Part shown: positions 8,396-30,539 of the stretch, piece by piece
Numbering within the stretch: position 1 is the first letter of the stretch
Layout: each line of letters begins with the position of its first letter
IMG/VR virus record: IMGVR_UViG_3300008267_006832
Coordinates: 1-39,915 of that record
DNA: 39,915 nt
Source: a virus
Reading direction: 5' to 3' (one strand)
Notes under the pieces: generated by a model
The model's input: only the letters and a program-made list of their open reading frames with translations
Told to the model about the DNA's origin: nothing
Database searches by the model: none
Made by a program: the position numbers and the translations under genes

Positions 8396-9223
8396 CTAGT
8401 TTTGTAATTTTTTAACTCCACCAGCAGTAGAATAAGTTTTTAAAATATTATCTGGTTCATTTTCGAAATGAGATTTAACTTTCTCTACATTTCTAGGGTC
8501 GTCATCAGAGAAACCAATACTAGGTATTACAAAATTATTTGAAACTTTGTTTTTTAAGAATGCTTTTTTCTGAATATGTTGGGATAAGTCTCTCACATAT
8601 TGAATGAATTCTTTTAAAGCTTTAATTTTCCCTTCTTCAGGATTTGTTGCAGAACCTTCACCATAACTTACAGGATAAAATCTACACATGTCAAGATACT
8701 CTCGTATCATGTCTTTTTTGGATAATTGTTCTTCATCCGCTAAGTCTCTATATTTCTCTAAGTTCTTAACTAACTCATTTGAGTTAATACCATTATGATT
8801 AGAAACTATATAATTATAACAAGCCTCTTTTAATGTGTTTGGGTGGTGACCCCTTGCAGTTACTATTGAAAAGATTGACCCGTTGTTGATTGCTTCCACA
8901 AAGTCATCCCATGCAGGACCTGGTTTTGCGGTCATAGAATCAACAATAAATTGTTTATCACCCATAGTTCTAAAATAACGGAAAGCGTCATCGGCAAACC
9001 CTGTAATTGTGTGACCTTCATATTCGAAAGGTTCTTTTCCTATCTCAGTTCTATATTCGGCAAAATCTTCGGTAGACATACCAACTTCTTTACCATCTTC
9101 ATCCATTAGAACTATCTTTGTTGGCATTACCGCAATATTGTCATCCCAGTCAAAAGAATAATATTTCATGTCGGGGGTACCCGCCTCATCAAACCCTTCT
9201 CTTACTATTTTTCTTATACTCAT
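8396..9223 (-). CDS. HAD-superfamily phosphatase-like protein
   Basis: 275 residues with a recognisable haloacid dehalogenase fold. Motif I is YYSFDWDDNI (nucleophile and acid Asp25 and Asp27), motif II is FSIVTARG (Thr122), a Lys-rich segment GKIKALKEF near residue 200 could supply motif III, and motif IV is GFSDDDPRN (Asp240-242). These enzymes transfer phosphate through an aspartyl-phosphate; the substrate cannot be read from the sequence, and a nucleotidase or nucleic acid 3'-phosphatase are possibilities. The N-terminus IRKIVREGFDEAGTPDM precedes the enzyme domain. The gene sits between the sheath (separated by a strong hairpin terminator) and the tube, so it may be expressed late or even be virion-associated. 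The stop is TAG at 8396-8398. The fold is confident; the role is unknown. Confidence 0.72.
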   Translation of the reverse strand: MSIRKIVREGFDEAGTPDMKYYSFDWDDNIAVMPTKIVLMDEDGKEVGMSTEDFAEYRTEIGKEPFEYEGHTITGFADDAFRYFRTMGDKQFIVDSMTAKPGPAWDDFVEAINNGSIFSIVTARGHHPNTLKEACYNYIVSNHNGINSNELVKNLEKYRDLADEEQLSKKDMIREYLDMCRFYPVSYGEGSATNPEEGKIKALKEFIQYVRDLSQHIQKKAFLKNKVSNNFVIPSIGFSDDDPRNVEKVKSHFENEPDNILKTYSTAGGVKKLQN

Positions 9224-9283: not shown

Positions 9284-12200
9284 TTAGATATTTTCGAAAG
9301 ATGCTCCTGTTGGAGTAATGTAGAACGTGATGTCGATGAATTCAAGTGACCTTGTTGGTTTGATGTAAATCTTACCAGTCATTTGGTTTCTATCTAAATC
9401 TGATACATCAGATGATACGGTTACACGGAAATCGTATAAACCACGGTCTCTTCTGATAGCATCTAAGATAGGGTTCACCGCATCTAAGAAGTCTTGTCTT
9501 ACTTTAGCATCGTTTTGTTCAAACAATAATCTAACAGAAACTGCAGAAATCAATTTACGAGCTTGTAATAATAATCTTCTTACGTTGATTCTATCAAGTG
9601 CTGATTGTCTAATTTGTAGAGTTTTATTACCCCAAATTACAGTTCCTACATCAGAGAAAGTTGCGATTGGGTTAATTCTACCTTGATATAGAACGTCTCT
9701 ATCTTCTTGTGTTAACTTCTTACGTGCTTTAACCGCATTTACAATACCACGAGTGTAACCTGCCGTTGCAAACCATGGATAAGCGATATTATCGGTTAAC
9801 GCTAAGTTTCTTGTTACTTCAGCGGTTGCTGGTAAGTAAATTTGAGTGTTATTCACACTATCACGAGTTAATACCCATGGGTAATAAGTTGCTGTGTAGT
9901 TAGAGTCAATTCCTGTATTATCTAAGTTATCAACTGCCTCTTGAGGGTAGATGAAGTCTTGAGGATTAGTACTTGTTGGTACATACATATTGTAGTCAGG
10001 TGTTGTACATACATAAAGTGAGTCAGCTCTGTCGTTTTCAATCATGTCGATTGCTTGTTCAACTAAGTCTGAGTTATTTACATAATCAATACCCGGTGTA
10101 ACAAACACGTTGATGTTAACCGCTTCAGGGTTAGCAAATGTTTGTTGACCTAATAAGTATGCGTAGTAGTCAGTGTTTGCAAATGTCTGAGTTGCATCAC
10201 CAACAGTAATTTGTTTGAATGCTCCCCATCCTGTTGCTGTTGGGTATTTTATTGAAGGACAAGCTCCTTTTAAGTAACCTGCTCTACCAACCGCAAATCT
10301 GTCAGTGTTAGTTCTATATTCTCTATAGATATCCCATCCGTCAAAACCACCTTGTGCTAATACAGAGAACTTACGAGCGTAAATTCTGTAGTATGGGTTA
10401 ACCGCATCTTCAGGGTCTTGGATAAATGGTGCATCACCACAAACGAATGCTGGTGTACCACTAGTTACGAACACATCAGGGATTGTGATAGCACTTGCGT
10501 TGATGTCCATGTGGAAACCTTTACTTCTCCAATTCCAAGGTTCACCTGTAGTATCTGTACAGATATCTAATGGTAATTGTTTACCTTTATAAGAGTAGTA
10601 ATCAACATCAATACCGATAGTATCAGAAATACCTAAGTAAGTTCTACGAACATTATCACCATTACTTCTTGTGATGTCATCAGCACCTGATGCTAAACCA
10701 AATGGTGGGTTATAAACAACTTCACCTGGGTAGTCATATTTGTTTTTAATGATTGGGAATGGAGGTTTAACACCCGCATATTCTCTAAAGTTGAATCCGT
10801 CGAATCCACAAGGTAATGCGTCTATTGGTGCATCTTCATTCATTTCCACCATAATGTATTTAGAATTTAAGATGTATTCACCATCAACAGTACCAATTTT
10901 TTGTGCTATAAATGAGTTATCACCCGGATTCATAGTACAGTTAGTAAATTTCTCTAATACAACAGGATTAGCATCAGTGTCAAAGAAGTCACGTACTAAA
11001 ATGTCAAATGTTCCGTTGTTGAACGACATGTTAGCCATTGAAATCTTAACTAAAGTGTTTGCACTATCACCGTCAGAAATTAATCTAAACTTAAATAGGT
11101 TATACACTTTATTACCTCTTAATTCTGAAACAATCCATGGAGTTTCAGGTGATTGATATTGTTCTAAATAGAATGCGATTGATGTTGGGTCGTTACCTTG
11201 TCTTGCGTCAGGTAATGCTGTTAAGTCACAGCTTAGACCTCTAATAAATCCTTTTCTCCATCCGTAGTTTAATAAAGCTTGGAATCTTTCTTCCACAAAT
11301 AAAGGAACAACAGTTCTTGGTTTTGAGAAGTTAGATGAACCAAATACTTTAGGTAAGTACTGAGTATCTGAGTTTTGGAATGATGTTTCAAAGAAGAATT
11401 GTTTACCATCTTTATTAGTAACATTAACACCAAAAGTTGAGTATGGGTTTTTAGTTACACCTGAGTATTGACCAGCACAATCTAAAGTAACATCAGTTAA
11501 ACCTGAAACTTCATAAACCGCACCATTGTCAAGTCCGTAAGTTGCCAAACCTCTTGAACGAAGTGTTGCTATTACAATATCATCGTAGTCAGTATAAGCG
11601 GTTCCTGAATAAACATATATTCTACCAATTAAAGTACCTGTATAACAATTAACAGGTGCCGCAGTTGTAGTTGTTGTAGTTGTTGTTGGTGTTGGTGTAA
11701 TACAAGGGTCTGTTGTAGTTGTTGTTGTTGTCGGTGCCGCAGTTGTTGTTGTGGTAACCGGCATCATTGTTAAACCTGTAACAATAGACCAGAATGAGTA
11801 ACCTGTGTAAGCTGCATTACCAAGATTATCGAATAATGCGTAGTACCAAGGGTCGTTTTGTGGTGCTGCGTAATTAATTAAAGATGCGTCAACACTTTCA
11901 ACACCCATTACGTTAGTTTCTGCGGTAAATATTGTTGAGAACGCCTCGTAAGTATCTCCTGAAATAGCACCATAATAGTAAATTGAAGTGTCTTCAGTTG
12001 ATGGTGTATTCATGATATCAAAAATCTGATTATTCATGTTAGTTCTCAAAGTTGATAAACTACCATCAAATAATTCATAAGGAGTATCAATTCTTCCTGA
12101 AATTTGTGCAGGAATTTGTGTTGGGTCTAAAAACTCAATCGTGTCTAAACTATTAGTACATCCTGAGAAATCAATTGCGAAGTCTATTGTCAAGAAATCG

Positions 12201-12613
12201 TTACATGTTGGTAAACAATCAACGATTGCTGGTGATTCACAATAGAAATCAACCGTACTTGGGTCTACGTTCGCTTTAACCGAGATTGACCAAGATGGTC
12301 CCGCATCGTAACCTGATAAACCTAAAATTCTTGTGACAAACAATTGGTTAGATTGTTGTAAATAAGCTTTTGCGATATACGCGGCTTCGTATTTAGGTAT
12401 TTGTGTGTTAATGAATTTTTCTGGTGAAGTCCCACCAAAGTAAGTCGAGAACTCATCAAAGTTTGTGATAAAGATGGGTTCAAATGCCGGACCCGCTAAA
12501 GTCTCACCAACGATACCCAATGTTGTAACACCAACACTCTGAGCCACGAAACTTAAGTCAACTTCTGATGTATACACCCCCGGTGATACGAATACTTTAC
12601 TGTTTGTTGCCAT
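9284..12613 (-). CDS. Contractile tail sheath protein (T4 gp18-like), enlarged by an insert
   Basis: 1109 residues; T4 gp18 has 659. The N-terminus has the sheath hallmark VFVSPGVYTSEVDLSF followed by GVTTLGIVGETLAGPAFEP. The C-terminus has NLALTDNIAYPWFATAGYTR, a VKARKKLTQEDRDVLY block and the conserved end RSLEFIDITFYITPTG. Subunits polymerise around the tube and contract to drive it through the cell envelope. The extra length lies in the middle. Around residues 284-320 a tract of Thr runs broken by AAP and DPCITPTP leads into a Cys-flanked domain (NCYTGTLIGRIYVYSGTAY ... LDCAGQYSG), probably on the outer surface of the tail. The start is ATG 12613, with TATTTATA 33 bases upstream and an A-rich leader. 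A hairpin terminator follows. Confidence 0.92.
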   Translation of the reverse strand: MATNSKVFVSPGVYTSEVDLSFVAQSVGVTTLGIVGETLAGPAFEPIFITNFDEFSTYFGGTSPEKFINTQIPKYEAAYIAKAYLQQSNQLFVTRILGLSGYDAGPSWSISVKANVDPSTVDFYCESPAIVDCLPTCNDFLTIDFAIDFSGCTNSLDTIEFLDPTQIPAQISGRIDTPYELFDGSLSTLRTNMNNQIFDIMNTPSTEDTSIYYYGAISGDTYEAFSTIFTAETNVMGVESVDASLINYAAPQNDPWYYALFDNLGNAAYTGYSFWSIVTGLTMMPVTTTTTAAPTTTTTTTDPCITPTPTTTTTTTTAAPVNCYTGTLIGRIYVYSGTAYTDYDDIVIATLRSRGLATYGLDNGAVYEVSGLTDVTLDCAGQYSGVTKNPYSTFGVNVTNKDGKQFFFETSFQNSDTQYLPKVFGSSNFSKPRTVVPLFVEERFQALLNYGWRKGFIRGLSCDLTALPDARQGNDPTSIAFYLEQYQSPETPWIVSELRGNKVYNLFKFRLISDGDSANTLVKISMANMSFNNGTFDILVRDFFDTDANPVVLEKFTNCTMNPGDNSFIAQKIGTVDGEYILNSKYIMVEMNEDAPIDALPCGFDGFNFREYAGVKPPFPIIKNKYDYPGEVVYNPPFGLASGADDITRSNGDNVRRTYLGISDTIGIDVDYYSYKGKQLPLDICTDTTGEPWNWRSKGFHMDINASAITIPDVFVTSGTPAFVCGDAPFIQDPEDAVNPYYRIYARKFSVLAQGGFDGWDIYREYRTNTDRFAVGRAGYLKGACPSIKYPTATGWGAFKQITVGDATQTFANTDYYAYLLGQQTFANPEAVNINVFVTPGIDYVNNSDLVEQAIDMIENDRADSLYVCTTPDYNMYVPTSTNPQDFIYPQEAVDNLDNTGIDSNYTATYYPWVLTRDSVNNTQIYLPATAEVTRNLALTDNIAYPWFATAGYTRGIVNAVKARKKLTQEDRDVLYQGRINPIATFSDVGTVIWGNKTLQIRQSALDRINVRRLLLQARKLISAVSVRLLFEQNDAKVRQDFLDAVNPILDAIRRDRGLYDFRVTVSSDVSDLDRNQMTGKIYIKPTRSLEFIDITFYITPTGASFENI
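11654..11758 (-). repeat. Low-complexity threonine-codon repeat in the sheath gene
   Basis: Runs of ACA/ACT codons form imperfect direct repeats, and the Ala-Ala-Pro unit (GCG GCA CC) occurs twice. They encode blocks of 5, 7 and 8 Thr separated by AAP, DPCITPTP and AAP. A similar Thr-block architecture occurs in the gene at 24213-24722. Confidence 0.75.
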
Positions 12614-13935: not shown

Positions 13936-15414
13936 TTATTTCGCTATTTTTGGTTCTTGTTTAAATACTACACGACTCTTACTAATCACATCGTAATCTT
14001 TGTTATCAAATTCAATAACCTTACTTGGATTAGCGAATGCTATCTTATCCACTTTTGGTTTGCTTGAGTAATCCCTCATTCCATAAGTATCCACAATAGT
14101 AATACCCTCTTCGGTGTTATAAGATTTAAGTGGTTTGATTTGATAATTAACACCATTGATTGTTACATCAACACCACCCCATCTATCCATCTTTGACCCG
14201 TGTGGGTAATAAGTAATGTCGGTTGTATCAATATTCTTTAAGAAGTTGTTTACTGAGTCCCTCTCAAGTTTTAATCCGTTGGCAATCGACATCCATTGTC
14301 TATCAACTAATAATTTTGTGTACTCTTTATTATTTTTAAATAAATCCGCCATCCACTCCACAATATCTTTGTCTGTGTTCTCCTCAACATACTTTAAGTA
14401 AATTAACGAATGAATTTCATCTTTTGTGTCAAAGTAATTAAGAACCGACCAAGATTCATCATCACCAAGTTTCTCACCAATAGTATACACATCTCTTAAA
14501 CCAGGTGTGTATATTTGGTCTTCTTGATGCCAATTTTCAGGGAAGGCTAATTCTAAAGCCTTTTTAATATTGGTTGAATTAATACCTACTTTAGATGGTT
14601 CTTTAGATTTGGTTGAGTTTGGATATTTCTTATCAAAATTTGAAATGTCTACACTTAACTTATTTTTGATGGGGTCGTAATTAACCTCATCTTCATTAAA
14701 AATGAAATTACCATTACCACCTTTTATACTAACTAAACCATTAGGAGTATCACTACTTGGTACAGGTAATGGGTTATTAAAATAATATCTTCTCGTGTTA
14801 AACTTTTCGTATTTACCAATTGTTGTATAGGTGAAACTATTTGGTCTTTCAGAAACTTGTTCTGTAATACCAATCTTTCTAACTTCTGAAATAACAAACA
14901 ATTTATTTCTTAGGTTAACCATGTCAACCTCTTTGGCTTTGTAAACAGGTTGTTCACTATCCTTATAGACAAACGAGTCATATTTGTAAGGGTTATAAGT
15001 AACGATATTACTATTTGGTTCCTGAGGAATATTTTCACAAGGGTACTGACAATAGTCTAATAATTTACCAATAACAAATGCGTGAACATTTTTAGCCATT
15101 TCAGTTCTAACTTTTTCTTTACCACCTTTTCTAACTCTAAACTCAACATCACCAAGTTTAACATAGTCAGCATGTAAGATAACCTTACTCTTATAGGTTA
15201 CAGAAAAAGTGTGTTTGTGTAAGTTGTAGTAAACCATAACTCGTTTACCTATAAACTTATCTTCGGCATTGTCGTGACCGCACTCATGACAAACATAAGG
15301 GTCATCACCACCTTCAGATAGACTCCATTCCCACCCACATTCTTTGCAAGTAACTTTCTTATCGACTTTATCGAATAATCTTTTGGCTTGTTCTTCTGTT
15401 AATACAAATTTCAT
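13936..15414 (-). CDS. Zinc-ribbon protein with Mrr-like (PD-(D/E)XK) nuclease-type C-terminal module
   Basis: 492 residues in three parts. After MKFVLTEEQAKRLF, residues 21-50 form a zinc ribbon with Cys23, Cys26, Cys42 and Cys45 (CKECGWEW ... CHECGHDN). Residues 57-118 (VYYNLHKHTFSV ... KNVHAFVIGKL) form a domain of unknown function that I associate with other phage proteins. Residues about 277-492 resemble the C-terminal part of the superoxide dismutase fusion at 17773-19311: KALELAFPENW and GLRDVYTIGE, then GSKMDRWGGVDVTINGVNYQ ending IKP. The GGVD (Asp416) and QIK (Gln425, Lys427) pair is the metal-binding and catalytic pattern of Mrr-type endonucleases. The gene overlaps the previous one by one base (TAATG) and abuts the next, inside a neck and tail operon. 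The activity and its target are unknown. Confidence 0.55.
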   Translation of the reverse strand: MKFVLTEEQAKRLFDKVDKKVTCKECGWEWSLSEGGDDPYVCHECGHDNAEDKFIGKRVMVYYNLHKHTFSVTYKSKVILHADYVKLGDVEFRVRKGGKEKVRTEMAKNVHAFVIGKLLDYCQYPCENIPQEPNSNIVTYNPYKYDSFVYKDSEQPVYKAKEVDMVNLRNKLFVISEVRKIGITEQVSERPNSFTYTTIGKYEKFNTRRYYFNNPLPVPSSDTPNGLVSIKGGNGNFIFNEDEVNYDPIKNKLSVDISNFDKKYPNSTKSKEPSKVGINSTNIKKALELAFPENWHQEDQIYTPGLRDVYTIGEKLGDDESWSVLNYFDTKDEIHSLIYLKYVEENTDKDIVEWMADLFKNNKEYTKLLVDRQWMSIANGLKLERDSVNNFLKNIDTTDITYYPHGSKMDRWGGVDVTINGVNYQIKPLKSYNTEEGITIVDTYGMRDYSSKPKVDKIAFANPSKVIEFDNKDYDVISKSRVVFKQEPKIAK

Positions 15415-15977: not shown

Positions 15978-17732
15978 TTGGAAAATATAAACCTAACGAT
16001 AGAACAAAAAGCTCTTAACCTCCTTGATAAATATGAGGGGGCAAATAACTATATACTTAAGTTAAGAAAACAAAAGCAATCAAACAAAAAGTTTTACCCG
16101 ACAAGAGCTCAAGCTGATTATATCACAAATTATTATGACGTACAACCTAAAGTTGCTAAACGATGGGTTGACCTTGACCCCTACTTCGCAAAGAAGATTG
16201 CAGACGAAAAATTATTAACCACAATACCCGAACAAGTTTGGGTTGAAAAATTATTAGTTGAGAAAGATAAGTCGTATCATGTTTGGGGTAAGATTTTGGA
16301 AACCCAAGAAATTCACGATTTTTGGTTACCAAAAGGTGCGTTGATTAAGACTCATAAAACTGAAGAGGTTACTATTGATTACTCAAAGTATTCTCATCGT
16401 CCTCCACTTGAGCACCAAAAAATTGCTATTGAAAAATTGGTGGGAACCAAAAGGTTTATCTTAGCCGATGATATGGGTCTTGGTAAAACAACCTCAACAA
16501 TTATCGCAGCCTTAGAAACGGGGGAAGAAAAGGTTTTAATTATCTGTCCTGCATCACTTAAAATTAACTGGGAAAGAGAAATTAGAAATTACACCGATAG
16601 AAGTGTGTATATTGCCGAAGGTAAAAACTTTTCAACAGAGCACGATTTCGTTATTGTAAATTACGATATTTTAAAAAACTTTTACGATATAAAGAACAAA
16701 GAAAAATCGTTGATTACTCAAGCCAACTTTGGTTTAGTTGTAATTGATGAGGCTCACTACATACAAAATGGTCAGGCACAAAGAACAAAGTTAGTTAATA
16801 GTTTTGTTAAGAACGTGAAAAGATTGTGGTTATTAACAGGAACACCAATGACATCACGACCAATGAATTATTTTAACCTACTACAACTTATTGAAAGTCC
16901 TGTGGCTCAGAATTGGATGGCGTACGCTATTCGTTATTGTCAAGGTTATCAATTTAATGCGGGTAAAAGAAAAGTGTGGAATGTTACGGGGGCGTCTAAT
17001 CTAGAAGAATTAAGAGATAGAACATCACGACAAGTGTTAAGAAGGTTAAAGACTGAAGTGTTGGATTTACCCGATAAGATTATATCACCTGTGTACCTAA
17101 GACTGAAATCAAGATTATATGAAGGTCTTATGGGTGAATATTATAATTGGTACGAAAATAAAACCGAAGAGTCTTCATCATTAACGGTTCAGTTTAGTAA
17201 GTTGATGAAAGTAAGACAAGTAATTGCGGAAGAAAAAATTAAAGATACGATAGAGTTAGCGGAAAATATTATAGAACAAGATAAGAAGGTGATTATTTTT
17301 ACAAATTTCACCGACACATTAAATAAAATAACTGAACATTTTGGTAAGATTGCCGTTAGTTTAGATGGGTCAACGTCAAAACCCGCTAGACAATTTGCCG
17401 TTGACCAATTCCAAGAGAATGATAAGGTTAAAGTCTTTGTTGGTAACTTAAAAGCTGCGGGTGTGGGTCTTACGTTAACCGCAGCTGAAGCTGTTATTAT
17501 GAATGACTTATCATTCGTCCCATCAGACCATAGTCAGGCCGAAGATAGAGCGTTTCGTTATGGACAAAAAAATAATGTGTCAGTTTATTACCCCATCTTT
17601 GAGAACACAATTGAGGGGGCGATATATGACATCTTAATAAAAAAGAAAAATATTTTTGAAACGGTTATGGGTGACAATCTTGATAAGGGTGATTTTATCG
17701 AGGAACTTATGAACCGTATTAATTCTCGATAA
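15978..17732 (+). CDS. SNF2-family helicase (SMARCAL1-like DNA translocase)
   Basis: 584 residues. Helicase motifs are complete: Q-like region PPLEHQKIAIEKL, motif I DDMGLGKTT (residues 164-172), Ia ICPASLKINWERE, motif II DEAH (257-260), motif III LLTGTP, a second RecA-like lobe with KVIIFTNFTDTLNKI, motif V AAGVGLTLTAA, and motif VI SQAEDRAFRYGQ. These ATPases move on double-stranded DNA and can remodel forks or strip proteins; the SMARCAL1-type subgroup anneals and reverses forks. In T4 a related need is met by UvsW, so a role in replication or recombination is likely. No ATG exists before the core; the best start is TTG 15978 (15 bases after an in-frame stop). It is divergent from the neck operon and starts a plus-strand unit. 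The stop is TAA at 17730-17732. Confidence 0.88.
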   Translation: MENINLTIEQKALNLLDKYEGANNYILKLRKQKQSNKKFYPTRAQADYITNYYDVQPKVAKRWVDLDPYFAKKIADEKLLTTIPEQVWVEKLLVEKDKSYHVWGKILETQEIHDFWLPKGALIKTHKTEEVTIDYSKYSHRPPLEHQKIAIEKLVGTKRFILADDMGLGKTTSTIIAALETGEEKVLIICPASLKINWEREIRNYTDRSVYIAEGKNFSTEHDFVIVNYDILKNFYDIKNKEKSLITQANFGLVVIDEAHYIQNGQAQRTKLVNSFVKNVKRLWLLTGTPMTSRPMNYFNLLQLIESPVAQNWMAYAIRYCQGYQFNAGKRKVWNVTGASNLEELRDRTSRQVLRRLKTEVLDLPDKIISPVYLRLKSRLYEGLMGEYYNWYENKTEESSSLTVQFSKLMKVRQVIAEEKIKDTIELAENIIEQDKKVIIFTNFTDTLNKITEHFGKIAVSLDGSTSKPARQFAVDQFQENDKVKVFVGNLKAAGVGLTLTAAEAVIMNDLSFVPSDHSQAEDRAFRYGQKNNVSVYYPIFENTIEGAIYDILIKKKNIFETVMGDNLDKGDFIEELMNRINSR

Positions 17733-17747: not shown

Positions 17748-17769
17748 GCTTATTTATTAGAAAATAAGC
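17748..17769 (+). promoter_or_regulatory. Hairpin immediately before the superoxide dismutase fusion gene
   Basis: GCTTATTT and AAATAAGC form an 8-bp stem with a 6-base loop, ending 3 bases before ATG 17773. There is no T run, so it is a poor terminator. It may mask the start codon or contribute to separating this gene from the helicase gene upstream. Confidence 0.4.
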
Positions 17770-17772
17770 CGT

Positions 17773-19311
17773 ATGAAAAAAATAGAAGATAAGATTGAAT
17801 CTATCTCCGAACAAATTAAAATTGTTGAAAAGGAATCTGTCAAGGAAAACTTGATAGTCGAAATGAAAAAGATAGGGATAGAGAAACTACCTTACGCCTA
17901 CACAGCCCTTAAGAAGTTTATTGATGCCGAAACCATGAGTTTCCATTACAACAAACATTACAAAGGTTACGTAGATAAATTAAATGATGCGTTAAGTAAA
18001 AAAAAGTATGGTGATTTAGAATTAGAAGAAATCATCAAGTCAATTAGCCGTTTTGATAAAACAATTAGAAATAATGCTGGTGGTGCTTTTAACCACGCGT
18101 TATTTTGGAAAATGTTATCACCAACAACTCAAACACCTAATGGTGAAGTCTTAAAACAAATTAAAAAAGATTTCAAAACATTTACGATTTTCAAGAATAA
18201 ATTTGAGGAAGTTGCTAATGAACGATTTGGTTCAGGTTGGGTGTGGTTAGTTTTAAACAAACGAAACAAATTAAAAATTGTGTCAACACCAAACCAAGAT
18301 AACCCACTTATGAATGTTGTTGAGGATGGTGGATATCCCATTTTAGGTTTGGATTTGTGGGAACACGCGTATTACTTAAAATACCGTAATAAAAAAGATG
18401 ACTATATTAATAACTTTTGGAAGTGTGTTAATTGGGAGTTTGTTAATAAGTTGTTTTCGATGAGAGTTGAGAATAAATTAAACGAATCTGTTAAATTAAG
18501 AACAATTATTAGTGAAGGTAAGTCTGAAAGATGTAGTAAAGAAGAAACCGAGTCTATTAGAATGGTGTTTAATATCAATCCTAAGGTTAAAGACATCTTT
18601 AAGGTATCAATTAACAAAATTTTAAAAGAAGCTTTCCCTGAAAACCATTACGGTGTTAATGAATATGCTAAAGGTGAAATGTCAGGAGTTTATGATTTAG
18701 AAAGTACTGGTCGTTCAGTTATTAATAAGTTAAATACGAACTATAGTTGTTTCTGTGTTTTATTAAATGATGTTAATACTGTTCTTGAAAAGGGTGGTTA
18801 TCCAAAAATTAATATGGTTGGTTTAACTCCCGCAGAACAAATAAATGAAGTCTATAAGTTTGTTAAAATTTTAGACAAATACAAGTTCAGAATCTTTAAC
18901 AGGGAGTCGGCAACATTCCAAAACATTATGAAAATATTAACTCAGACTGATAGTTGGGGTCAAAAACGTGAGGATGTTACCGCACTAATTCTTAAAAAGA
19001 AATTTGGTGAGGACAATGTAAAGTCTGTTGGTAAATTAGGTAGTCGTGAAGATATGATTGGTGGTATTGATTGTGAAATTGTTGTTAACGGAACTAAACA
19101 CACGTCACAAATCAAACCTTTTACGGGTATCAAAAAAATTGATGGTGAAATTCATGTTTATGGGTCGGCAAACGTTAAGAAATACTCAACCGATTGGTTA
19201 ATATTCACAAAAAACAATAAAGATGTGATTATTTTTAGAAATAAGAATACTAAGATTGTTGAAGGTCAATACGTTTTCCCTGAGAAAGATTTAATTTATT
19301 CTTTGAATTGA
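17773..19311 (+). CDS. Fe/Mn superoxide dismutase fused to an Mrr-like nuclease-type module
   Basis: 512 residues. Residues about 38-230 are a complete iron/manganese superoxide dismutase domain. All four metal ligands are present: His58 (ETMSFHYNKHY), His108 (NNAGGAFNHALFW), Asp194 and His198 (LDLWEHAYYLKYRNK). The Gly pair at 103-104 and Gln175 (PNQDNPLM) are typical of the Mn-type rather than the Fe-type. The helical N-terminus (1-37) is extra. Residues about 270-512 match the C-terminal module of the zinc-ribbon protein at 13936-15414: ILKEAFPENHYG, GVYDLEST, GSREDMIGGIDCEI and TSQIKPF. Asp433 with Gln446 and Lys448 gives the D-x(12)-Q-x-K pattern of Mrr-type nucleases. The dismutase domain should remove superoxide; the nuclease function is inferred. 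It lies between helicase and neck genes and ends in TGA. Confidence 0.85.
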   Translation: MKKIEDKIESISEQIKIVEKESVKENLIVEMKKIGIEKLPYAYTALKKFIDAETMSFHYNKHYKGYVDKLNDALSKKKYGDLELEEIIKSISRFDKTIRNNAGGAFNHALFWKMLSPTTQTPNGEVLKQIKKDFKTFTIFKNKFEEVANERFGSGWVWLVLNKRNKLKIVSTPNQDNPLMNVVEDGGYPILGLDLWEHAYYLKYRNKKDDYINNFWKCVNWEFVNKLFSMRVENKLNESVKLRTIISEGKSERCSKEETESIRMVFNINPKVKDIFKVSINKILKEAFPENHYGVNEYAKGEMSGVYDLESTGRSVINKLNTNYSCFCVLLNDVNTVLEKGGYPKINMVGLTPAEQINEVYKFVKILDKYKFRIFNRESATFQNIMKILTQTDSWGQKREDVTALILKKKFGEDNVKSVGKLGSREDMIGGIDCEIVVNGTKHTSQIKPFTGIKKIDGEIHVYGSANVKKYSTDWLIFTKNNKDVIIFRNKNTKIVEGQYVFPEKDLIYSLN

Positions 19312-19333: not shown

Positions 19334-20455
19334 ATGTCAATTATTCCAGAACCAGAAAGAAGTAAACTTTACACAAGGGTAAGACATGTACTTGGTGCAC
19401 CTTTACGTTCAGTTGAGTTAGAAGACGAACAAATGGATACTCTTCTTGAGTTCGCCATTGATGACTACTCACAATATATCCAAAATTGGTTAATCGAATC
19501 TCAGTGGTCAAACCTTTGGGGGTTAAATGTTGAGACTCAATCTTTAGCTCGAGCGTTTGTAACTAAGAGTTTAGATTTTGAAACTCGTTACACTTACGCC
19601 TACTCTAAAATAGTTGGTTTACAAGCTGGTGGTGATTGGGTTTTAAAGAAAGATTACATTAACTTGGTACCTAACCAACAAATCTATGAGATTCCCGCAG
19701 GTAGGGAATTAAATGAACTATTATGGTTCACACCTTCAGAGTTAAATAACATGTTGTTCGACCCATGGTCATTCGGTGCTTTAGGTGGTGCGGGTCTTGG
19801 TGGGCCAGCGGGTTATTCTCAAATGGGTATGTCAGGTTCATACTTTATGATGCCTGCATTTGATATGTTATTAAGAATGCAAGAAATTAACATCCAAAGA
19901 AGAATTATTGCGGGTGAGTTAACTTATCGTGTAACAGCATTGCCTGATGGTAAAAAGGCGGTTCACTTAATGAATACACCTGGTGGTAAGTTTGACTTTG
20001 GTAATGCCGAATTAATGAAAGGTAAAGTTTGGTATTGGTATTATGATGTTGGTCCTGATGATAGAGATAAATGTCTTAAAAACAATCCTGAGATTATTAA
20101 AATGCCATCAGACGTTCCATTAGATAAAATGTCTTGGGTTGATTTAAATAATCCTGCACAACAATGGGTTAGACGATATTTTATAGCAACTTGTAAAGAA
20201 ACATTAGGTCGTGTTAGAGGTAAGTTTTCAGGTAACATTAAAACACCTGATTCTGAATTGACAATGGATTACCAAAGTTTACTAACTGAAGGTAAAGATG
20301 AAAAACTTAAATTGATTGAGGAATTAACAGGTGCCGAAGGTACATTAACAAGACTTAAACCTGATAAGGTTATGGAAAGAGAGGCGTTGTTAGCGGAAAA
20401 CTTAAATAAACAACTTAAGTTTAGAGCAATGCCACGTCAAATATATGTGATTTAA
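19334..20455 (+). CDS. Neck protein candidate (T4 gp13-like head completion)
   Basis: 373 residues. The N-terminus SKLYTRVRHVLGAPLRSVEL followed by EDEQMDTLLEFAIDDYSQYI and the C-terminal block YFIATCKETLGRVRGKF followed by a Glu/Leu-rich helix match the layout of phage neck or head-completion proteins of the gp13 type, which sit between portal and tail. A Gly/Met-rich loop (GALGGAGLGGPAGYSQMGMS, residues about 148-172) interrupts the middle. T4 gp13 is shorter (309 residues). The next gene starts one base after its stop codon. The start ATG 19334 is supported by the candidate late motif upstream. It could instead be another connector ring protein; a head-tail junction role is fairly likely. 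Confidence 0.58.
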   Translation: MSIIPEPERSKLYTRVRHVLGAPLRSVELEDEQMDTLLEFAIDDYSQYIQNWLIESQWSNLWGLNVETQSLARAFVTKSLDFETRYTYAYSKIVGLQAGGDWVLKKDYINLVPNQQIYEIPAGRELNELLWFTPSELNNMLFDPWSFGALGGAGLGGPAGYSQMGMSGSYFMMPAFDMLLRMQEINIQRRIIAGELTYRVTALPDGKKAVHLMNTPGGKFDFGNAELMKGKVWYWYYDVGPDDRDKCLKNNPEIIKMPSDVPLDKMSWVDLNNPAQQWVRRYFIATCKETLGRVRGKFSGNIKTPDSELTMDYQSLLTEGKDEKLKLIEELTGAEGTLTRLKPDKVMEREALLAENLNKQLKFRAMPRQIYVI

Positions 20456-23776: not shown

Positions 23777-24184
23777 ATGAATTCAATAATACAAGTACCA
23801 ACAAAAATATACATTGACAAATCACTCATTCATGGTTTGGGAGTGTTTGCTAAAGAAATAATTAGTGAGGGTGAGGTAATTGAAGAGTGTCCAATTTTTA
23901 CATTACCAATTAAGCAAGGTGAGTCAAGTCCATTAATGATTGACTATAGATTTAATTGGCCTCAAGGTAATGAACCCGAAGAACAGGTTATCGCTTGGGG
24001 TTATGGTTCACTTTATAACCATAGTAAAAACGCTAACGCTTATTGGATTTCTAATTTAGAAAAGAAAACATTTGTTTTTATCGCTAATAGGACTATATAC
24101 CCTAATGAAGAAATATTTGTTTGGTATGGTGATATGGACTATTGGAACGACGGACGTTGGGGTATAGATGTTGTCGGAAATTAA
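23777..24184 (+). CDS. Small SET-domain lysine methyltransferase
   Basis: 135 residues, almost only a SET domain, similar in size to the viral SET protein of chlorella virus PBCV-1 (119 residues). Motifs in order: IHGLGVFAKEIISEGEVIEE (residues 18-37, the cofactor-binding start), YGSLYNHSKNANAYW (76-90, including the NHS of the pseudoknot), FIANRTIYPNEEIFVWYG (101-118, including EE and the catalytic Tyr117). SET proteins transfer a methyl group from S-adenosylmethionine to lysine side chains in proteins. The target is not evident; a host or phage DNA-binding protein or a virion protein are possibilities. It is divergent from the DNA polymerase gene (147-base gap). Its upstream sequence ATATCTTTATAACATG resembles the one before the GT9 gene at 30540, which may be a second promoter class. 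Confidence 0.82.
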   Translation: MNSIIQVPTKIYIDKSLIHGLGVFAKEIISEGEVIEECPIFTLPIKQGESSPLMIDYRFNWPQGNEPEEQVIAWGYGSLYNHSKNANAYWISNLEKKTFVFIANRTIYPNEEIFVWYGDMDYWNDGRWGIDVVGN

Positions 24185-24212: not shown

Positions 24213-24722
24213 CTATAGTTGTGTTGTTGTGGTTGTCGTGTTTGGGGCGATTGTCGTAGTTGTTGTAGTTGGGGCAATTGTCGTAGTTGTTGTAGTTGTT
24301 ACGTATGGTAAACAACATGGGAACTCTACCACATAACAACTTGAGTATTCTAAATCATCCGCAATAAACGATTCTTGAACATTAATAAATAAAGACTCTC
24401 TAATCGGTACTATTAAAACCCCGTCATCATTCCTTAACATAAACTGACCTTCGTATCTACCCACTTTACTAGTATCTCTATTAGTAAACTGATAGTATAT
24501 ATAATACTCAGGTGATGCGTTAGGGTCTAATAATGTCTTCTCAACAAACCCTGCAGGTCTTGAACTAATTTTTGGAATCCCTGTTGCAGTATCAATCATG
24601 GAGAAAAATATGGCAGATTCCTCAATAGTTTTCATAAAACTATCGTAGTCACTTCTACCATCTTTTACGACTTGTAATTTTAGTACCGGTAAGGTTGCGT
24701 TCTTTTTAATGAAAAATTCCAT
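24213..24722 (-). CDS. Virion-type protein with poly-threonine tail
   Basis: 169 residues. The N-terminal 135 residues (MEFFIKKNATLPVLKLQVVK...) look like a compact beta domain of a structural protein. A Cys-rich turn (EFPCCLPYV) then leads into a tail that is almost only Thr: TTTTTTTIAP, TTTTTTIAP, NTTTTTTQL. Such tracts are flexible and are typical O-glycosylation substrates. The gene lies directly upstream of a long glycosyltransferase operon in the same orientation and has its own TATTTATA motif, so it is probably a late, abundant protein. The ATG is part of a 10-base inverted repeat. The tail is encoded by 27-base tandem repeats that could expand or shrink. The stop is TAG 24213-24215. 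No known family is assigned with confidence. Confidence 0.65.
   Translation of the reverse strand: MEFFIKKNATLPVLKLQVVKDGRSDYDSFMKTIEESAIFFSMIDTATGIPKISSRPAGFVEKTLLDPNASPEYYIYYQFTNRDTSKVGRYEGQFMLRNDDGVLIVPIRESLFINVQESFIADDLEYSSCYVVEFPCCLPYVTTTTTTTIAPTTTTTTIAPNTTTTTTQL
24244..24297 (-). repeat. Two tandem 27-bp repeats encoding TTTTTTIAP
   Basis: 24244-24270 and 24271-24297 differ at one base only (GGGGCGATTG versus GGGGCAATTG at the start, read on the plus strand). Each encodes six Thr followed by Ile-Ala-Pro. A degenerate partial copy precedes them at 24220-24243. Confidence 0.85.
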
Positions 24723-24762: not shown

Positions 24763-26445
24763 TTAGCTTTCTTTTCTTAAAGAGGACTCATAGAAGTCAA
24801 ATCTATCGTGTTCTGTCGGTGTTAGTAATAATATACCCGAACTCAATTTACCCTTCTTAGTTTCTTGATACATGTGACTCATCCACGTTTGCTCAAATGG
24901 ATGGGGCCATTTAGTGGTTAAAAACATTTTTTGATTTCCTTTACGTGTCACAACTTGAGGCCAATTACAATAATATACCTCACCTAAAGCGTACGGAATA
25001 TTATTATATGATTTAATACGAGTAAATTCTGTTTTTGGGGCGTTAGGGTCAGTACCTGTTTGTGGTAATTTCTTATTATTTGGCCAAAACTTTTCTCTAA
25101 TATCTTGAGGTACATTATACCAACTCCATTGAGTTGAGTTGTCACCATAAAATTCAGTAAAGTTAAGTTTTAAAAAATCCAAGTTTTCATTTTGGGTAAT
25201 TGTTATTGAGTTTTTGTATAAATTTTTAACGTATCGGTTAAACCCGTTTCTACAAACCTCACCTTCTTTAGGGTAGAAAAACATATCATCCTCAAAGAAA
25301 TAATAAAAATCAAAACCTTCTTGTTCTGCGTGTTCGGCAATAAATTGTCTACCACCACAAATACCTAAATTATCCTTTTTAATATGTGTGAAACCATGTT
25401 CATTACATAACTCAACATATCGTTCTGTCGTACTTAAATCACTTGAGTTATCTAACAAAAACTTTTTAGGTTTATGTATAAAATCATCATCATATCTATA
25501 CATGGACTCAATCAATGTCTCAAATTGTTTTGGACTATTAAATGTGATAACATACAGACCAACATTATTTGGGTTGGTAAATAACAAATCTTCTTTTAGA
25601 TTTTGGGTATTGTAATTTTTCAACTCCTCAAAAAACGGCCAAACCAAACCATTACCCTCAACCTCAAACCTGTCAACAATATTAGAATGTTTATGAGCCA
25701 AAATTGTGAATAAACATTCGTCAGCACCCATAAGATTCTCTTTAAGTGTGTTTTCCATAACACCATAATAAAGAGTATTCATTTCATGAACTCTATCTTT
25801 AGAACCACCAAAAAATCCGCCACGACAAACATAATCAACGTAATCAACACCACAATATCTGGCCATCGCTCGTCTTTCAAAACCATGAATTTCGTCATTA
25901 GATGTATATGGGTATGAAATTTGAATAAACTTATTCTGTTTTTTAATTACATAATTTTCTAAGTTATCCAAAACTTTTTCATTATGAAAATATCCTGCCC
26001 CAACCGTATTAGTTAAACCACCGTCAATCCAAAAAAAGTAATCACTATTAAATGGATTCACTATTGCAGAATCATTTAACATAAACATTTTGGTAAACAT
26101 CATTGGGTTATAGTACTTTAACGCGGCTTGTGGTGACTCAGGTAACCAACCTGCAAAGTTTTTCCAATTAGGATTATTTCTAATTTCATCAATCTTATTA
26201 AAGAAAGGGTTCCACGTCTCAAAATCCGTAACATTCTTAATAAAAATTTTAGTGGGTTTATCCCCTCTAATATTTAATACCTCCTCCTCTAATTCTTGGG
26301 GAATCCAAATACACATTTGAGCGTCAGTATCTAACATCTCAAAGAACTTAGTTTTATAGTAGTTAAAATCTCTTTGAGCCCATCCTGATAACTCACCTCG
26401 TCCCATATCCCAAAGTCCTGTGACTATTGTTACATTTTTATTCAT
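24763..26445 (-). CDS. Two-domain glycosyltransferase: HtrL/YibB-like plus GT2
   Basis: 560 residues. Residues 1 to about 270 follow the HtrL/YibB pattern (VTIVTGLWDMGRGELSGWAQ at the start, then a conserved Trp/Tyr-rich core with YFFWIDGG), a family associated with surface polysaccharide genes. From about residue 285 a second, GT2-type GT-A domain begins (NNVGLYVITFNSPKQFETLI) and carries an acidic metal and nucleotide-sugar site in FYYFFEDDMFFY near residue 390. It is the last gene of the minus-strand glycosylation operon, starting one base after the previous stop codon. Two transferases on one chain suggest consecutive sugar additions to one acceptor. Donor sugars cannot be read from the sequence. 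Confidence 0.75.
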   Translation of the reverse strand: MNKNVTIVTGLWDMGRGELSGWAQRDFNYYKTKFFEMLDTDAQMCIWIPQELEEEVLNIRGDKPTKIFIKNVTDFETWNPFFNKIDEIRNNPNWKNFAGWLPESPQAALKYYNPMMFTKMFMLNDSAIVNPFNSDYFFWIDGGLTNTVGAGYFHNEKVLDNLENYVIKKQNKFIQISYPYTSNDEIHGFERRAMARYCGVDYVDYVCRGGFFGGSKDRVHEMNTLYYGVMENTLKENLMGADECLFTILAHKHSNIVDRFEVEGNGLVWPFFEELKNYNTQNLKEDLLFTNPNNVGLYVITFNSPKQFETLIESMYRYDDDFIHKPKKFLLDNSSDLSTTERYVELCNEHGFTHIKKDNLGICGGRQFIAEHAEQEGFDFYYFFEDDMFFYPKEGEVCRNGFNRYVKNLYKNSITITQNENLDFLKLNFTEFYGDNSTQWSWYNVPQDIREKFWPNNKKLPQTGTDPNAPKTEFTRIKSYNNIPYALGEVYYCNWPQVVTRKGNQKMFLTTKWPHPFEQTWMSHMYQETKKGKLSSGILLLTPTEHDRFDFYESSLRKES

Positions 26446-26446
26446 A

Positions 26447-27394
26447 TTAAATAAATTTTAAATCAATATTAAAGTTTTCGTTATAACAAATTCTATAAAC
26501 CTCGTTATCTAACTTAAGTTCAATTATTAAGAATTTTCGTTGTCCATGAATTGGGTCTCCCATAACGTTAATATCAACACGAAGATTAATCATTTGATTA
26601 TTGTTGTCAATTAAATTTTGTTTTATTTTTTCGGTAACATCAATTTGTGTTTTTGGTAAATCAGGTGGGTATCCTTCGTCTTGTTGGATTCCTAATGTAC
26701 CGAATAATCCACTAACAACCTCAATAGATTTATTTTTAAAGAATTCAGTATTTGTGTAAGCATCAATTGGTAGGTTACTAAAATATGGGTTCCATGTAAA
26801 ATGGAAGTATTCTTTTGAGTTATAATGTCTTGCATGGTGTAACCAGTCCTCAAAATACCATCTATCACCATGGACAGGGTCTTTATTTTCTTTAATAAAT
26901 GATAAGTTTGACCACCAAAAGTTACCCCAATACCAATTACCAACACAAGTCATCCCACAGGTATCGTGAGTTTTCAAATCCTCAATACATTGTTGGAAAT
27001 TATCGATTAAGTGGTATTCTAAAGCGTCTCTCCAAATACTAATCCCATCAATTTTCCATTGTGATGGTTCTCGGGTATTTAGATTGGTATATGTGTTTGA
27101 GACCCCTTTAGCATGAAAATAAAATACCTGACCATCATGTTCTTGAGACAAATCCCATATTTTTTTTATAGGCCAATACTCATATCCGTTTCTATTAGTT
27201 TTAAACATATTAACTTTATCCATTCCGTTGAATAGTTCGTCAATACCTTCGTACTTCTCCTCGGTATCAACACAAGACACCTCCATAACGTCACACCATT
27301 CGTAAAGTCCTGACGTTTTTAATCTATCTAATTGTGATTTAACAATGTCTTGGTAATTTCCAAAACAAAATATGTGATATACTATAGCTTTCAT
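26447..27394 (-). CDS. Glycosyltransferase-like protein with C-terminal beta domain
   Basis: 315 residues. The start MKAIVYHIFCFGNYQDIVKS looks like the first strand of a GT-A fold. A YFHAKGVSNT motif near residue 95 and GNWYWGNFWWSNLSF near residue 160 occur in putative glycosyltransferases of bacteria and large viruses, where the GNFWW segment forms part of the active site; this link is from memory and not certain. From about residue 250 a separate beta-strand segment (NNQMINLRVDINV ... KFLIIELKL) resembles accessory domains of other enzymes in this island. Its ATG overlaps the previous stop by 4 bases. No DXD motif is obvious, so acceptor and donor are unknown. Confidence 0.6.
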   Translation of the reverse strand: MKAIVYHIFCFGNYQDIVKSQLDRLKTSGLYEWCDVMEVSCVDTEEKYEGIDELFNGMDKVNMFKTNRNGYEYWPIKKIWDLSQEHDGQVFYFHAKGVSNTYTNLNTREPSQWKIDGISIWRDALEYHLIDNFQQCIEDLKTHDTCGMTCVGNWYWGNFWWSNLSFIKENKDPVHGDRWYFEDWLHHARHYNSKEYFHFTWNPYFSNLPIDAYTNTEFFKNKSIEVVSGLFGTLGIQQDEGYPPDLPKTQIDVTEKIKQNLIDNNNQMINLRVDINVMGDPIHGQRKFLIIELKLDNEVYRICYNENFNIDLKFI

Positions 27395-28653
27395 TTCTTT
27401 CTGATAATTGCGTAGATTGAATCATCCCTATCATTTGATATTTGAATTGATTCAATATTGTTTAGGAATGATTCCCAACTCGGTGTCATATAATCAGTTG
27501 TTGGGTTATTATCAATAATACTTTGTAACATATCCAAAGCAGTTGTTTTACTTGGGTCTCCCCACCCAAACACAGCCTTTTCTGGCATTCTACACTCTAA
27601 TGACGTTTGTAAATCTTCTATAATAAATAAACCACCCGGTTTAACATTTTCGAATAAAATTTGTACTGTGATTTGAACGTCGTTCATTCTATGTGAACCA
27701 TCATCAATAATAACATCATACATAAATCCGTTCTTAGAGAATTCATATAGCGATTCTTGATTTGATTGGTCTACGTTGAACATCCAAACTCTATCTAAAT
27801 CAGATTGATAATTGTTGATGTCAATCCCGTGAATAAGACCTTCTTTAAAGAAATCATTCCAAACTTTTAGTGATGCACCATCTAAAACACCAATCTCTAA
27901 AATATCACATTTTTCTCGGTACGGTTGTAATATTTTCTGATAAAATCTGTTATAGTAATTGTGAAGGTATTGCTTATCAGTACCGTAATATTCACCAATC
28001 TTATTAAGTTCATCAGTTTCAAATTCCATCTCAATACCGAACTTTTTATTATGAATAGTGTCTATAGTTCTATTGGGTAATTGACCGTATGAGAACGCAT
28101 GAAATATGAATTTATTATCACCATATTCTCTAGCATTAAAATCATTATTTTGAATTATACTAAATTGGGATTTGTCGATTTGTCTTTCATGCCACAAACC
28201 GATACATGTTTGGTCGTGCCATAACCCTTCTTTATATTGAGGATATTCTTCACATATGTCCCACCATTCATTTAGGAAATTTTTAGAGTATTCATTATTT
28301 TTTAATAACAAAACACCCGCATTTACTAATGATGGACCGTAATCTTGTGTCATAACAATACTACTAAGACCATCAATAAATTCTTCAATTCTTCTTGAGT
28401 TATTACAAAAGATTGCGTCGATATCCAAAAATAGAACATATTCCGAATCAGGGAAACGCTCAAGAGTTTCTCTAATTAGATGTGGTTTGTACCAAGTAAA
28501 TGAACGACCTGGTATTTTACTTTTTATTTTGTTACCGTCTTTCTCAACAAAGTAATAATACCCGTTATCTTGACAATACTTTTCATTTATTTTTTCAGCA
28601 TACTCACCGTATGATACGTTTGGAGTATAAAATTGACATACACTTATTTTCAT
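27391..28653 (-). CDS. Fusion: GT34-like galactosyl/mannosyltransferase plus class I methyltransferase
   Basis: 420 residues. Residues 1-205 resemble the GMA12/MNN10 type: ISVCQFYTPNVSYGEYAEKI at the start, metal site FLDIDAIF (Asp77, Asp79), a SLVNAGVLLLKN segment, and WHDQTCIG. Residues about 215-420 form an S-adenosylmethionine-dependent methyltransferase of the cephalosporin-hydroxylase/macrocin-methyltransferase kind: ILEIGVLDGASLKVW (251-265), HGIDI, VIIDDGSHRMNDVQ (314-327) with the metal-binding acidic pair, and VKPGGLFIIEDL. The fusion suggests that a sugar is added and then methylated, perhaps to cap the chain. It overlaps the next gene by 4 bases, and 4 bases separate it from the previous one. 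Confidence 0.82.
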   Translation of the reverse strand: MKISVCQFYTPNVSYGEYAEKINEKYCQDNGYYYFVEKDGNKIKSKIPGRSFTWYKPHLIRETLERFPDSEYVLFLDIDAIFCNNSRRIEEFIDGLSSIVMTQDYGPSLVNAGVLLLKNNEYSKNFLNEWWDICEEYPQYKEGLWHDQTCIGLWHERQIDKSQFSIIQNNDFNAREYGDNKFIFHAFSYGQLPNRTIDTIHNKKFGIEMEFETDELNKIGEYYGTDKQYLHNYYNRFYQKILQPYREKCDILEIGVLDGASLKVWNDFFKEGLIHGIDINNYQSDLDRVWMFNVDQSNQESLYEFSKNGFMYDVIIDDGSHRMNDVQITVQILFENVKPGGLFIIEDLQTSLECRMPEKAVFGWGDPSKTTALDMLQSIIDNNPTTDYMTPSWESFLNNIESIQISNDRDDSIYAIIRKK

Positions 28654-28657
28654 AATA

Positions 28658-29902
28658 TTATAGATAATTCATTATTCTGTCACACCATCCTTTAGATTTA
28701 GAGTGAGGCCATACAACCCAATAGGTTGGTTTTAATGAGGTTTGGAATGTTCTCCATACTTTACCATAACCATCGGGGTCTGATAAAATTCTTTTAACTT
28801 CATTTTCATCAGCATCTTCACGATAGATTGTTTCGTCGTTTTTATCGTGGAAAGCAACAACCCAAAAGTCATAATCTTGTTCAGGTACCAATTTGTAATC
28901 AATGTCAATACAATGTTTAAAGATAGATGCAAAACTAGCTTTCCATTCCTCTTCAGTATCAAACATTGTTGGGTTGGGTGGATAGTTTTTATCAATGGTG
29001 TATTGTTGAACTGAACGGTTATCAAATCTAATCCCCGCATATATTTCATAATCTCTTAATGTTCTGTTAGGTCCGAATCCATATTTACCCATGTCAGATT
29101 GTTGTTCACCATCCATACCAAATAATTTTCTATTCTTCTGGTGTGACCTAACATTTTTATTACCCCAATCAGGGTCATCATCCCATTGTTTGGTTCTACC
29201 GTTACGAGTGTATTCATGCCAAACCAAAGTCTTGTGAGGGTGGAATAAATCATAACCCCAAGTGTAGGCTCTAACAGCAATTGAAATTTCTTCTCCGTGA
29301 AAATAAAATTCAGGGTCGTGTTGTACCTCTTCAGAGAATTGACCTAACGTAAAACAGAAATGTGCTGAGTAGAATCTAGCAGGAATTGGTTTTTTAAGTT
29401 TCTCCCAACCAGGAATTGTTTCAGGTAGAAAGAATACCGCACCTTCAGGGATGAATCGGTCAAATACCATTCTCCATGGCTCTTTAACTCTTTCGGCAGG
29501 GTCATTTTCAGGATTGAAGGATGATACATAACCTGTTAGTAGTGGTTTTTCAAACCCATCCTTTTGAAGTTGTTTAATCATTTTGATAAACTCTGAGTCC
29601 CAATTCTTTTCGAATCTCATATGCGAGTCAATCTGCATAGTATATTCCTCACCTTCATACAAGGTTTGGGTTAGGTTTCTTGCCCAACACACACCTTTGG
29701 ATTCGGAGTATAGGACATCAATAACTCTAAATCGTTTATCGTCTTTGTACTCTTCTAAGGAATCAAAACCATCTTCAGGGTGGTACTGTCTACAAATACC
29801 GAACCTTATATTTTTTGGGTTTTTAGCGTTTTCTAAAATAGATTTGATTGTCTTAACCAATTCTGGGTCTCGGTAAGATGCAATTTGAATGAATATTCTC
29901 AT
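28658..29902 (-). CDS. GlcNAc transferase of the Skp1-type polypeptide family
   Basis: 414 residues. The start IFIQIASYRDPELVKTIKSI matches the family of Skp1-like polypeptide N-acetylglucosaminyltransferases (GlcNAc domain, GT60). The catalytic DXH-type metal site is YTMQIDSHMRF (Asp92, His94), and a second conserved segment is EFYFHGEEISIAVRAYTWG near residue 205, where Glu residues close the active site. In Dictyostelium the family adds GlcNAc to hydroxyproline on a protein; bacterial and phage members are less studied. That the nearest well-known relatives act on polypeptides is the main hint that this island may modify proteins. It is the first enzyme of the minus-strand operon, 51 bases after the Pro/Thr-rich protein gene. 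Confidence 0.8.
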   Translation of the reverse strand: MRIFIQIASYRDPELVKTIKSILENAKNPKNIRFGICRQYHPEDGFDSLEEYKDDKRFRVIDVLYSESKGVCWARNLTQTLYEGEEYTMQIDSHMRFEKNWDSEFIKMIKQLQKDGFEKPLLTGYVSSFNPENDPAERVKEPWRMVFDRFIPEGAVFFLPETIPGWEKLKKPIPARFYSAHFCFTLGQFSEEVQHDPEFYFHGEEISIAVRAYTWGYDLFHPHKTLVWHEYTRNGRTKQWDDDPDWGNKNVRSHQKNRKLFGMDGEQQSDMGKYGFGPNRTLRDYEIYAGIRFDNRSVQQYTIDKNYPPNPTMFDTEEEWKASFASIFKHCIDIDYKLVPEQDYDFWVVAFHDKNDETIYREDADENEVKRILSDPDGYGKVWRTFQTSLKPTYWVVWPHSKSKGWCDRIMNYL

Positions 29903-29953
29903 ATTTCTTTTTTACGAAAAAATACGAGATTTTTTAATAAAGTTAAGTGTAAA

Positions 29954-30466
29954 TTATGGTATAGTTGGGGTTGGTGTTGGAGTTTGTGTCGGTAATGGGG
30001 TTGACCCAATACAAGAATTGTCAACACAAGGACTACCGTGGTAAATTGTAACTCCGGTATCGGCATCAGGGTTTTTACCACAAAAATACAATAAGACACC
30101 TGGTTGTATGAAACTCCAAATAAAGTTACCTTCACAATCGGTTATCTCACAACTTAATTCACTTGCGGTCGTGTTATAGAAAGTATAACAATCACAATCG
30201 GTGTAAACAACTGTAGGTGATGGTGTTAATGTTGGTGTTGGTGTTGGTGTTACTAAAGGTGTCACTTGGAAATTAATGTACCCGCAAGAATCGATAGTTT
30301 GGACTAAGACTTGTGTAGTCCCTGTGAATTGGGTTGGGACATTAACAACAACAGGAAAAGATGTAACCCCTGTCATTACGGTACAACAGTATGTGTTTGT
30401 AACATCACAAATGTTAATTGTGAATGGTGGTGTTCCGATTGCGGATGATATTACGATAGTTTCCAT
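29954..30466 (-). CDS. Cys-rich protein with Pro/Thr linkers, virion surface candidate
   Basis: 170 residues from ATG 30466. I prefer this start over the in-frame ATG 30502, because a TATTTATA motif lies 6 bases upstream of 30466 and the protein then begins METIVISSAIGTPPF. Two Cys-rich domains (CDVTNTYCC ... SCGYINF and CDCYTFYN ... CEITDCEGNF ... CVDNSC) are joined by a linker VTPTPTPTLTPSPTVV (residues about 71-86) and end in STPLPTQTPTPTPTIP. There is no signal peptide. The linkers resemble mucin-like O-glycosylation targets. It lies at the divergence point of the two glycosylation operons and in the same orientation as the minus-strand one. The likely role is an exposed tail or head appendage, inferred from composition only. 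Confidence 0.62.
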   Translation of the reverse strand: METIVISSAIGTPPFTINICDVTNTYCCTVMTGVTSFPVVVNVPTQFTGTTQVLVQTIDSCGYINFQVTPLVTPTPTPTLTPSPTVVYTDCDCYTFYNTTASELSCEITDCEGNFIWSFIQPGVLLYFCGKNPDADTGVTIYHGSPCVDNSCIGSTPLPTQTPTPTPTIP

Positions 30467-30472
30467 TATTAG

Positions 30473-30480: not shown

Positions 30481-30539
30481 GTTGTAAAATTAGATTTTCC
30501 AATTATGTAAATTCCTGAAAAATCACTTATATTATAAAC

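Follow-up and report, generated by a model that had tools for sequence, protein, structure and literature searches.

A single reading frame of 512 residues in the 39,915-nucleotide stretch of viral DNA analysed here (the window) encodes, in order, a leader, a Mn-type superoxide dismutase (SOD), a linker and a nuclease-like module. It stands between a helicase gene and a neck gene, as the initial annotation had placed it, and the features of the locus and of one further related gene are listed below with the evidence for each.

13936..15414, minus strand: gene for a 492-residue protein with an MKFVLTE leader, a CxxC zinc-ribbon-like segment, an L5 gp82-like domain (Pfam L5_gp82, 9e-29) and a GGVD...QIK module
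15978..17732, plus strand: SNF2-type helicase gene, the conserved upstream neighbour (Pfam; synteny)
17751..17757, plus strand: TATTTAT promoter-like element, 79 of 89 relatives have it within -60..-1 of the gene
17773..19311, plus strand: reading frame of the putative precursor, 512 residues, ATG start
17773..17862, plus strand: predicted helical leader or propeptide, residues 1-30, a capsid-targeting candidate ending in I28-V29-E30 (conservation, pLDDT)
17854..17862, plus strand: predicted prohead-protease site 1, IVE30 followed by M (L/I-X-E motif, conservation)
17881..18456, plus strand: Mn-type superoxide dismutase domain, residues 37-228 (Pfam, solved relatives, invariant residues)
18478..18486, plus strand: predicted prohead-protease site 2, LNE238 followed by S (E238 in 91 of 91 relatives)
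18508..18516, plus strand: predicted prohead-protease site 3, ISE248 followed by G (E248 in 90 of 91 relatives; kept in relatives that lack the SOD)
18517..18945, plus strand: helical N-terminal part of the C-terminal module, residues 249-391, no recognised fold (AF2)
18946..19308, plus strand: PD-(D/E)XK nuclease-like domain, residues 392-512, with E400, D433, Q446 and K448 (AF2, structure comparison, conservation)
19334..20455, plus strand: head-tail adaptor (neck) protein gene, the conserved downstream neighbour (phrog_211, 2.6e-10; synteny)

The SOD part matches both Pfam families of the two-domain enzyme, Sod_Fe_N over residues 37-116 (PF00081, 4e-23) and Sod_Fe_C over residues 122-226 (PF02777, 2e-39), and its closest solved structures are Mn-SODs (1gv3, 1e-59). 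An alignment of 91 distinct full-length relatives shows no variation in the metal ligands His58, His108, Asp194 and His198 or in H62, Y66, Q175, W196, E197 and Y201; Q175 is the Gln of the Mn type, and the stretches NNAGGAFNH and TPNQDNP of the Mn-type second shell are present. Ligands and second shell were likewise invariant in a smaller alignment of 77 relatives; the four ligands and the Mn-type surroundings named in the initial annotation were all correct. The domain is intact and of Mn type, and it is predicted to be catalytically competent. Both halves of the protein are under strong purifying selection, with a median dN/dS of 0.039 for the SOD and 0.081 for the C-terminal module. The phage domain shares its full extent, all ligands and the second shell with the Mn-SODs of the Fe/Mn family; unlike the cellular enzymes, of which the nearest are approximately 50% identical and mostly from Bacteroidota, it sits between a leader and a nuclease-like module.

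The remaining part of the protein had been described as some 240 residues with a GGID and QIK pattern like that of Mrr-type endonucleases, for which a fold search was proposed. An AF2 model of residues 248-512, built from 38 relatives, has a mean pLDDT of 92, and in a structure comparison with VIA-align rows 1 to 23 are PD-(D/E)XK proteins without exception, led by archaeal Hjc (Z 8.5, rmsd 3.4 A, 101 residues aligned) and including NhoI, Eco15I, I-Ssp6803I, SPARDA effectors and DpnI. All 91 sequences have E400, D427, D433, Q446 and K448, and of these E400, D433 and Q446-x-K448 supply the acidic/(D,E,Q)xK set of the superfamily. Since Foldseek of the module against the PDB was weak (best E 0.016), the assignment is based on the consistent top rows together with the invariant E...D...QxK; a sequence profile of the module compared with the PDB gave nothing useful. 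In the model the last ~120 residues (approximately 392-512) adopt a PD-(D/E)XK nuclease fold, which places them in a nuclease-type family. Fold and E...D...QxK are common to this domain and to Hjc, NhoI/Eco15I, I-Ssp6803I and the SPARDA effectors, from which the module differs by an identity of only ~6-19% and by an additional helical part of ~140 residues. The nuclease fold proper is confined to that stretch, residues 249-391 being helical, barely covered by the fold-search rows and without a recognised fold. The GGID/QIK pattern is real, and D433, Q446 and K448 in it are invariant. The nearest solved folds are PD-(D/E)XK proteins other than Mrr, which is absent among the fold matches listed; Pfam, NCBIfam and PADLOC gave no match to the Mrr family, and PADLOC no match of any kind.

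A profile search of whole genomes for paralogues of the module found one gene per genome only. The 492-residue protein encoded upstream is related to the module by direct profile comparison (hhalign, 92% probability over 72 columns), and the relation is visible by that method only; in most relatives its gene encodes only 120-195 residues, too short for the module. A 735-kb phage carries a stand-alone relative of 290 residues with 24% identity, a sign that the module also occurs independently of the SOD and perhaps originated that way. In that phage (positions 2482-3822) the relative adjoins a 145-residue protein resembling a 135-residue protein of the window (23777-24184), and both of these are SET-domain-like by eye.

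The initial annotation had proposed a search for the same domain pair in other phage sequences, and the fusion recurs at full length in at least ~80 IMG/VR contigs. SOD and module are joined in all 91 distinct full-length relatives. All 89 loci with the SOD, and all 22 without it, show the gene order helicase, fusion, head-tail adaptor. An assembly join is ruled out by the number of distinct relatives and the fixed gene order, and a misbinned fragment of a host gene by the conservation of the neighbouring helicase and head-tail adaptor genes.

The leader and the linker between SOD and module are variable, and their invariant residues are the glutamates of three L/I-X-E sites and a few residues at the domain edges. 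E30 and E238 are each present in 91 of 91 relatives, with L or I at P3 in 91 and 87 of them, respectively (Met in the other 4); E248 is present in 90 of 91, with L or I at P3 in all 90. The middle residue of the three sites varies freely. The only other conserved Glu preceded by L/I in this way is E197, which belongs to the WEH motif of the SOD active site. In a model of the full-length protein the pLDDT falls below 50 at residues 19-41, 70-82 and 235-249, and the first and last of these segments contain all three sites, which thus lie in predicted-disordered, flexible linkers flanking the SOD. In phage T4 the prohead protease gp21 has L/I-X-E as its cleavage motif; the propeptides that it takes off range from 7 residues in Alt to 65 in gp23, and those of the T4 internal proteins (IPs) are capsid-targeting sequences (PMC9026906). 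Because L or I stands two residues before 19-23% of glutamates (23% within the fusion family), three given glutamates would match by chance in about 1% of cases. What gives the predicted sites weight is that, in flexible linkers bordering the SOD on either side, they are the points that do not vary; the conserved linker glutamates could also serve another role. The leader, at ~30 residues, exceeds the 10-19 residues usual for those of T4 internal proteins, and it does not have the MKxxITE form of the other leader-bearing proteins described below.

Versions of 294 and 309 residues lack the SOD and keep the locus, the module and site 3. The 309-residue version also retains the leader, site 1 and the sequence MKKIxIEKL just before the position of the SOD, as expected for a clean loss of the domain. 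The two SOD-less versions occupy two places in the module tree, where well-supported branches force two changes of SOD label; the SOD disappeared on two occasions, each time with the module retained. A separate SOD gave no match in the long SOD-less relatives G003, G004 and G005, whose genomes are possibly incomplete.

Genes for the capsid and its maturation were found outside the 39.9-kb window, in long relatives of up to 322 kb: a Peptidase_S77 prohead protease (PF03420) and a Gp23-type capsid protein (PF07068) each occur in 6 of 8. Within its first 60 residues the gp23-type capsid protein of these relatives contains five L/I-X-E sites, of which SFLINE followed by A comes last, and the predicted cut at residue 60 is comparable in place to the end of the 65-residue propeptide of T4 gp23. 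In two long relatives, a leader of the form M[KR]xx[ILV][TKNSA]E begins 23 of the 372 predicted proteins in one and 21 of 398 in the other; the pattern is absent from the rest of the two proteomes (~167,000 residues). L/I-X-E has its maximum at residue 7, where 25 and 29 proteins carry it, compared with ~6 per position. About two dozen proteins per genome (G001, G003) start with 7-residue leaders of the type MK[IVLF][IL][IL]TE[SN]. A large group of virion cargo proteins in these phages may share such leaders as a tag. Within the window, the 492-residue protein starts with MKFVLTE, a form kept in nearly all of its homologues; a 275-residue protein (8396-9223) was set aside as a weaker candidate, its MSIRKIVRE having V rather than L/I at P3. 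Cultured relatives of the capsid protein include Flavobacterium phages. One of these, Flavobacterium phage immuto (41% identity), gave no MKxxITE leaders when scanned with that pattern and is therefore a poor proxy, and no virion proteome of it was found in the literature.

The promoter-like element upstream of the gene belongs to a wider pattern. In two long relatives the sequence TATTTATA occurs upstream of genes with ~10-fold enrichment, and TATTTATA/TATTTAT also precedes the portal, scaffold and protease genes, which is in line with expression of the fusion among virion genes. A different sequence, TATCTTTG/TAnnTTTG, is 6-10-fold enriched upstream of other genes in long relatives; the two resemble two promoter classes, the second of them Bacteroidota-like, TAnnTTTG being the Bacteroidota -7 element. 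The host is probably a member of the Bacteroidota, given the nearest cellular SODs, the TAnnTTTG enrichment and the Flavobacterium phages among the capsid relatives. Elsewhere in the window, positions 24763-39915 hold a long run of glycosyltransferase-like and methyltransferase-like proteins (by eye) beside tail genes, and Thr/Pro-rich low-complexity stretches (TTTTTTAPTTTT, TPTPTPTLTPSPT) occur within otherwise ordinary virion-like proteins at 9284-12613, 24213-24722 and 29954-30502.

We consider it reasonably likely that the gene encodes a precursor of internal head proteins of large T4-like phages, which would be targeted to the prohead, cut, packaged and ejected. The predicted helical leader of ~30 residues would direct the precursor into the prohead, where a gp21-type protease would cut after E30, E238 and E248 in the flexible linkers and free the leader, the Mn-SOD and the PD-(D/E)XK nuclease-like protein. 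The latter two would stay in the capsid until they are ejected along with the DNA. Superoxide near the packaged DNA, or in the cell soon after infection, would be cleared by the dismutase, and the nuclease-like part would have DNA as its target at an early stage of infection. T4 offers precedents in the propeptides of the IPs and Alt, in the ejection of these proteins into the cell and in fusions of the capsid-targeting sequence (CTS) that carry foreign enzymes (PMC9026906). With somewhat more reserve, we find it slightly favoured that the particle carries a dismutase and a nuclease from one polyprotein, split in the prohead by the capsid-maturation protease, amid a few dozen cargo proteins with MKxxITE-type leaders. 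Virion proteomics or N-terminal sequencing of any member of the group was not found in the literature. The initial guess of an action in the virion gains support from the linker sites and from the protease and capsid genes of the relatives, with packaging itself a prediction. Its companion idea, that the SOD senses redox state to control cleavage, fares worse: the conserved linker sites and the two SOD losses speak against it, and for the same reasons two separable cargoes fit better than one coupled enzyme.

The same observations bear on an uncut bifunctional enzyme of the cytoplasm, whose SOD would protect DNA while its nuclease processes phage or host DNA, the two possibly redox-coupled. 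The fusion of SOD and module in every full-length relative and the helicase gene as fixed upstream neighbour would suit such an enzyme, yet it does not account for variable linkers whose invariant points are the three L/I-X-E glutamates and a few domain-edge residues, nor for the retention of the module after each loss of the SOD, and dismutase activity does not need a tether to a nuclease; we regard it as unlikely. A cytoplasmic stress SOD might instead have been joined through a chance fusion to a nuclease with a structural or packaging function, one that acts in head completion like T4 gp4. The leader and the conserved protease-like sites at both SOD borders would then be superfluous, which makes this account quite improbable in our view, even though the stand-alone SODs of other large phages lie near the stress genes clpX, clpS and ibpB, the downstream neighbour here is a head-tail adaptor gene, and gp4, a virion nuclease of the REase fold, completes heads in T4-like phages (PMC7824862). 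A scan of five long relatives for nucleases of the TnsA family or like gp4 found nothing above the cut-off, a result compatible with or without a gp4-like role of the module.

Mn-SODs assemble as dimers or as tetramers, and among PD-(D/E)XK enzymes many work in dimeric form, an arrangement that would suit an SOD serving as a mere dimerisation or targeting scaffold for the nuclease, with no enzymatic role. This seems very improbable, as all ligands and second-shell residues of the SOD are invariant, its dN/dS is lower than that of the nuclease-like module, and the module persists without the SOD in two lineages.

Cargo precursors cut in the prohead, the reading we prefer, have their closest known counterparts in the T4 internal head proteins IPI, IPII, IPIII and Alt. 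Like these, the precursor has an N-terminal leader ending in L/I-X-E, and its relatives have a gp21-type protease, a gp23-type capsid protein and cargo that varies between lineages; unlike them, it has a Mn-SOD and a PD-(D/E)XK module joined as a single precursor, for which three sites are predicted, and the likeness is one of leader, site and gene features. Fe/Mn-SOD genes are also known as stand-alone genes in large phages, namely Pseudomonas phages PA5oct, MIJ3 and Paride and Vibrio phage 2.275.O; these encode proteins of ~180-190 residues, ~27-29% identical and without the module, and adjoin stress, translation or topoisomerase genes. Eukaryotic giant viruses carry SOD in their virions, for example the megavirus Cu,Zn-SOD (reviewed in PMC9405923). 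That enzyme is particle-associated, as predicted for the precursor, but it is an unrelated Cu,Zn enzyme of eukaryotic viruses with no known dependence on prohead-protease processing.

The initial annotation knew of no described fusion of this type, and neither a phage SOD fusion nor a virion-packaged phage SOD was found described in the open-access literature. The same fusion has probably been deposited already, however, since the closest BFVD match is A0A6J5L953, a 501-residue 'superoxide dismutase' of an uncultured Caudovirales phage (TM 0.91, 38% identity over the module). It probably shares the architecture of the precursor, in which case its name hides the second half, and phage SODs as such were annotated before. 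Phage SODs, PD-(D/E)XK proteins and prohead-cleaved cargo are thus each known, and what was not found described is a precursor of SOD and nuclease-like module with predicted maturation sites.

If the proposed processing is true, an antioxidant enzyme and a nuclease-like protein arrive in the cell with the infecting phage, so that redox defence would precede any phage gene expression. T4-type capsid targeting, which in T4 serves a small number of internal proteins, would be widened to include a multi-part precursor and a large set of cargo, and cargo would become predictable from sequence through the leader and the L/I-X-E sites. The group of large freshwater phages that encodes the fusion is widespread.
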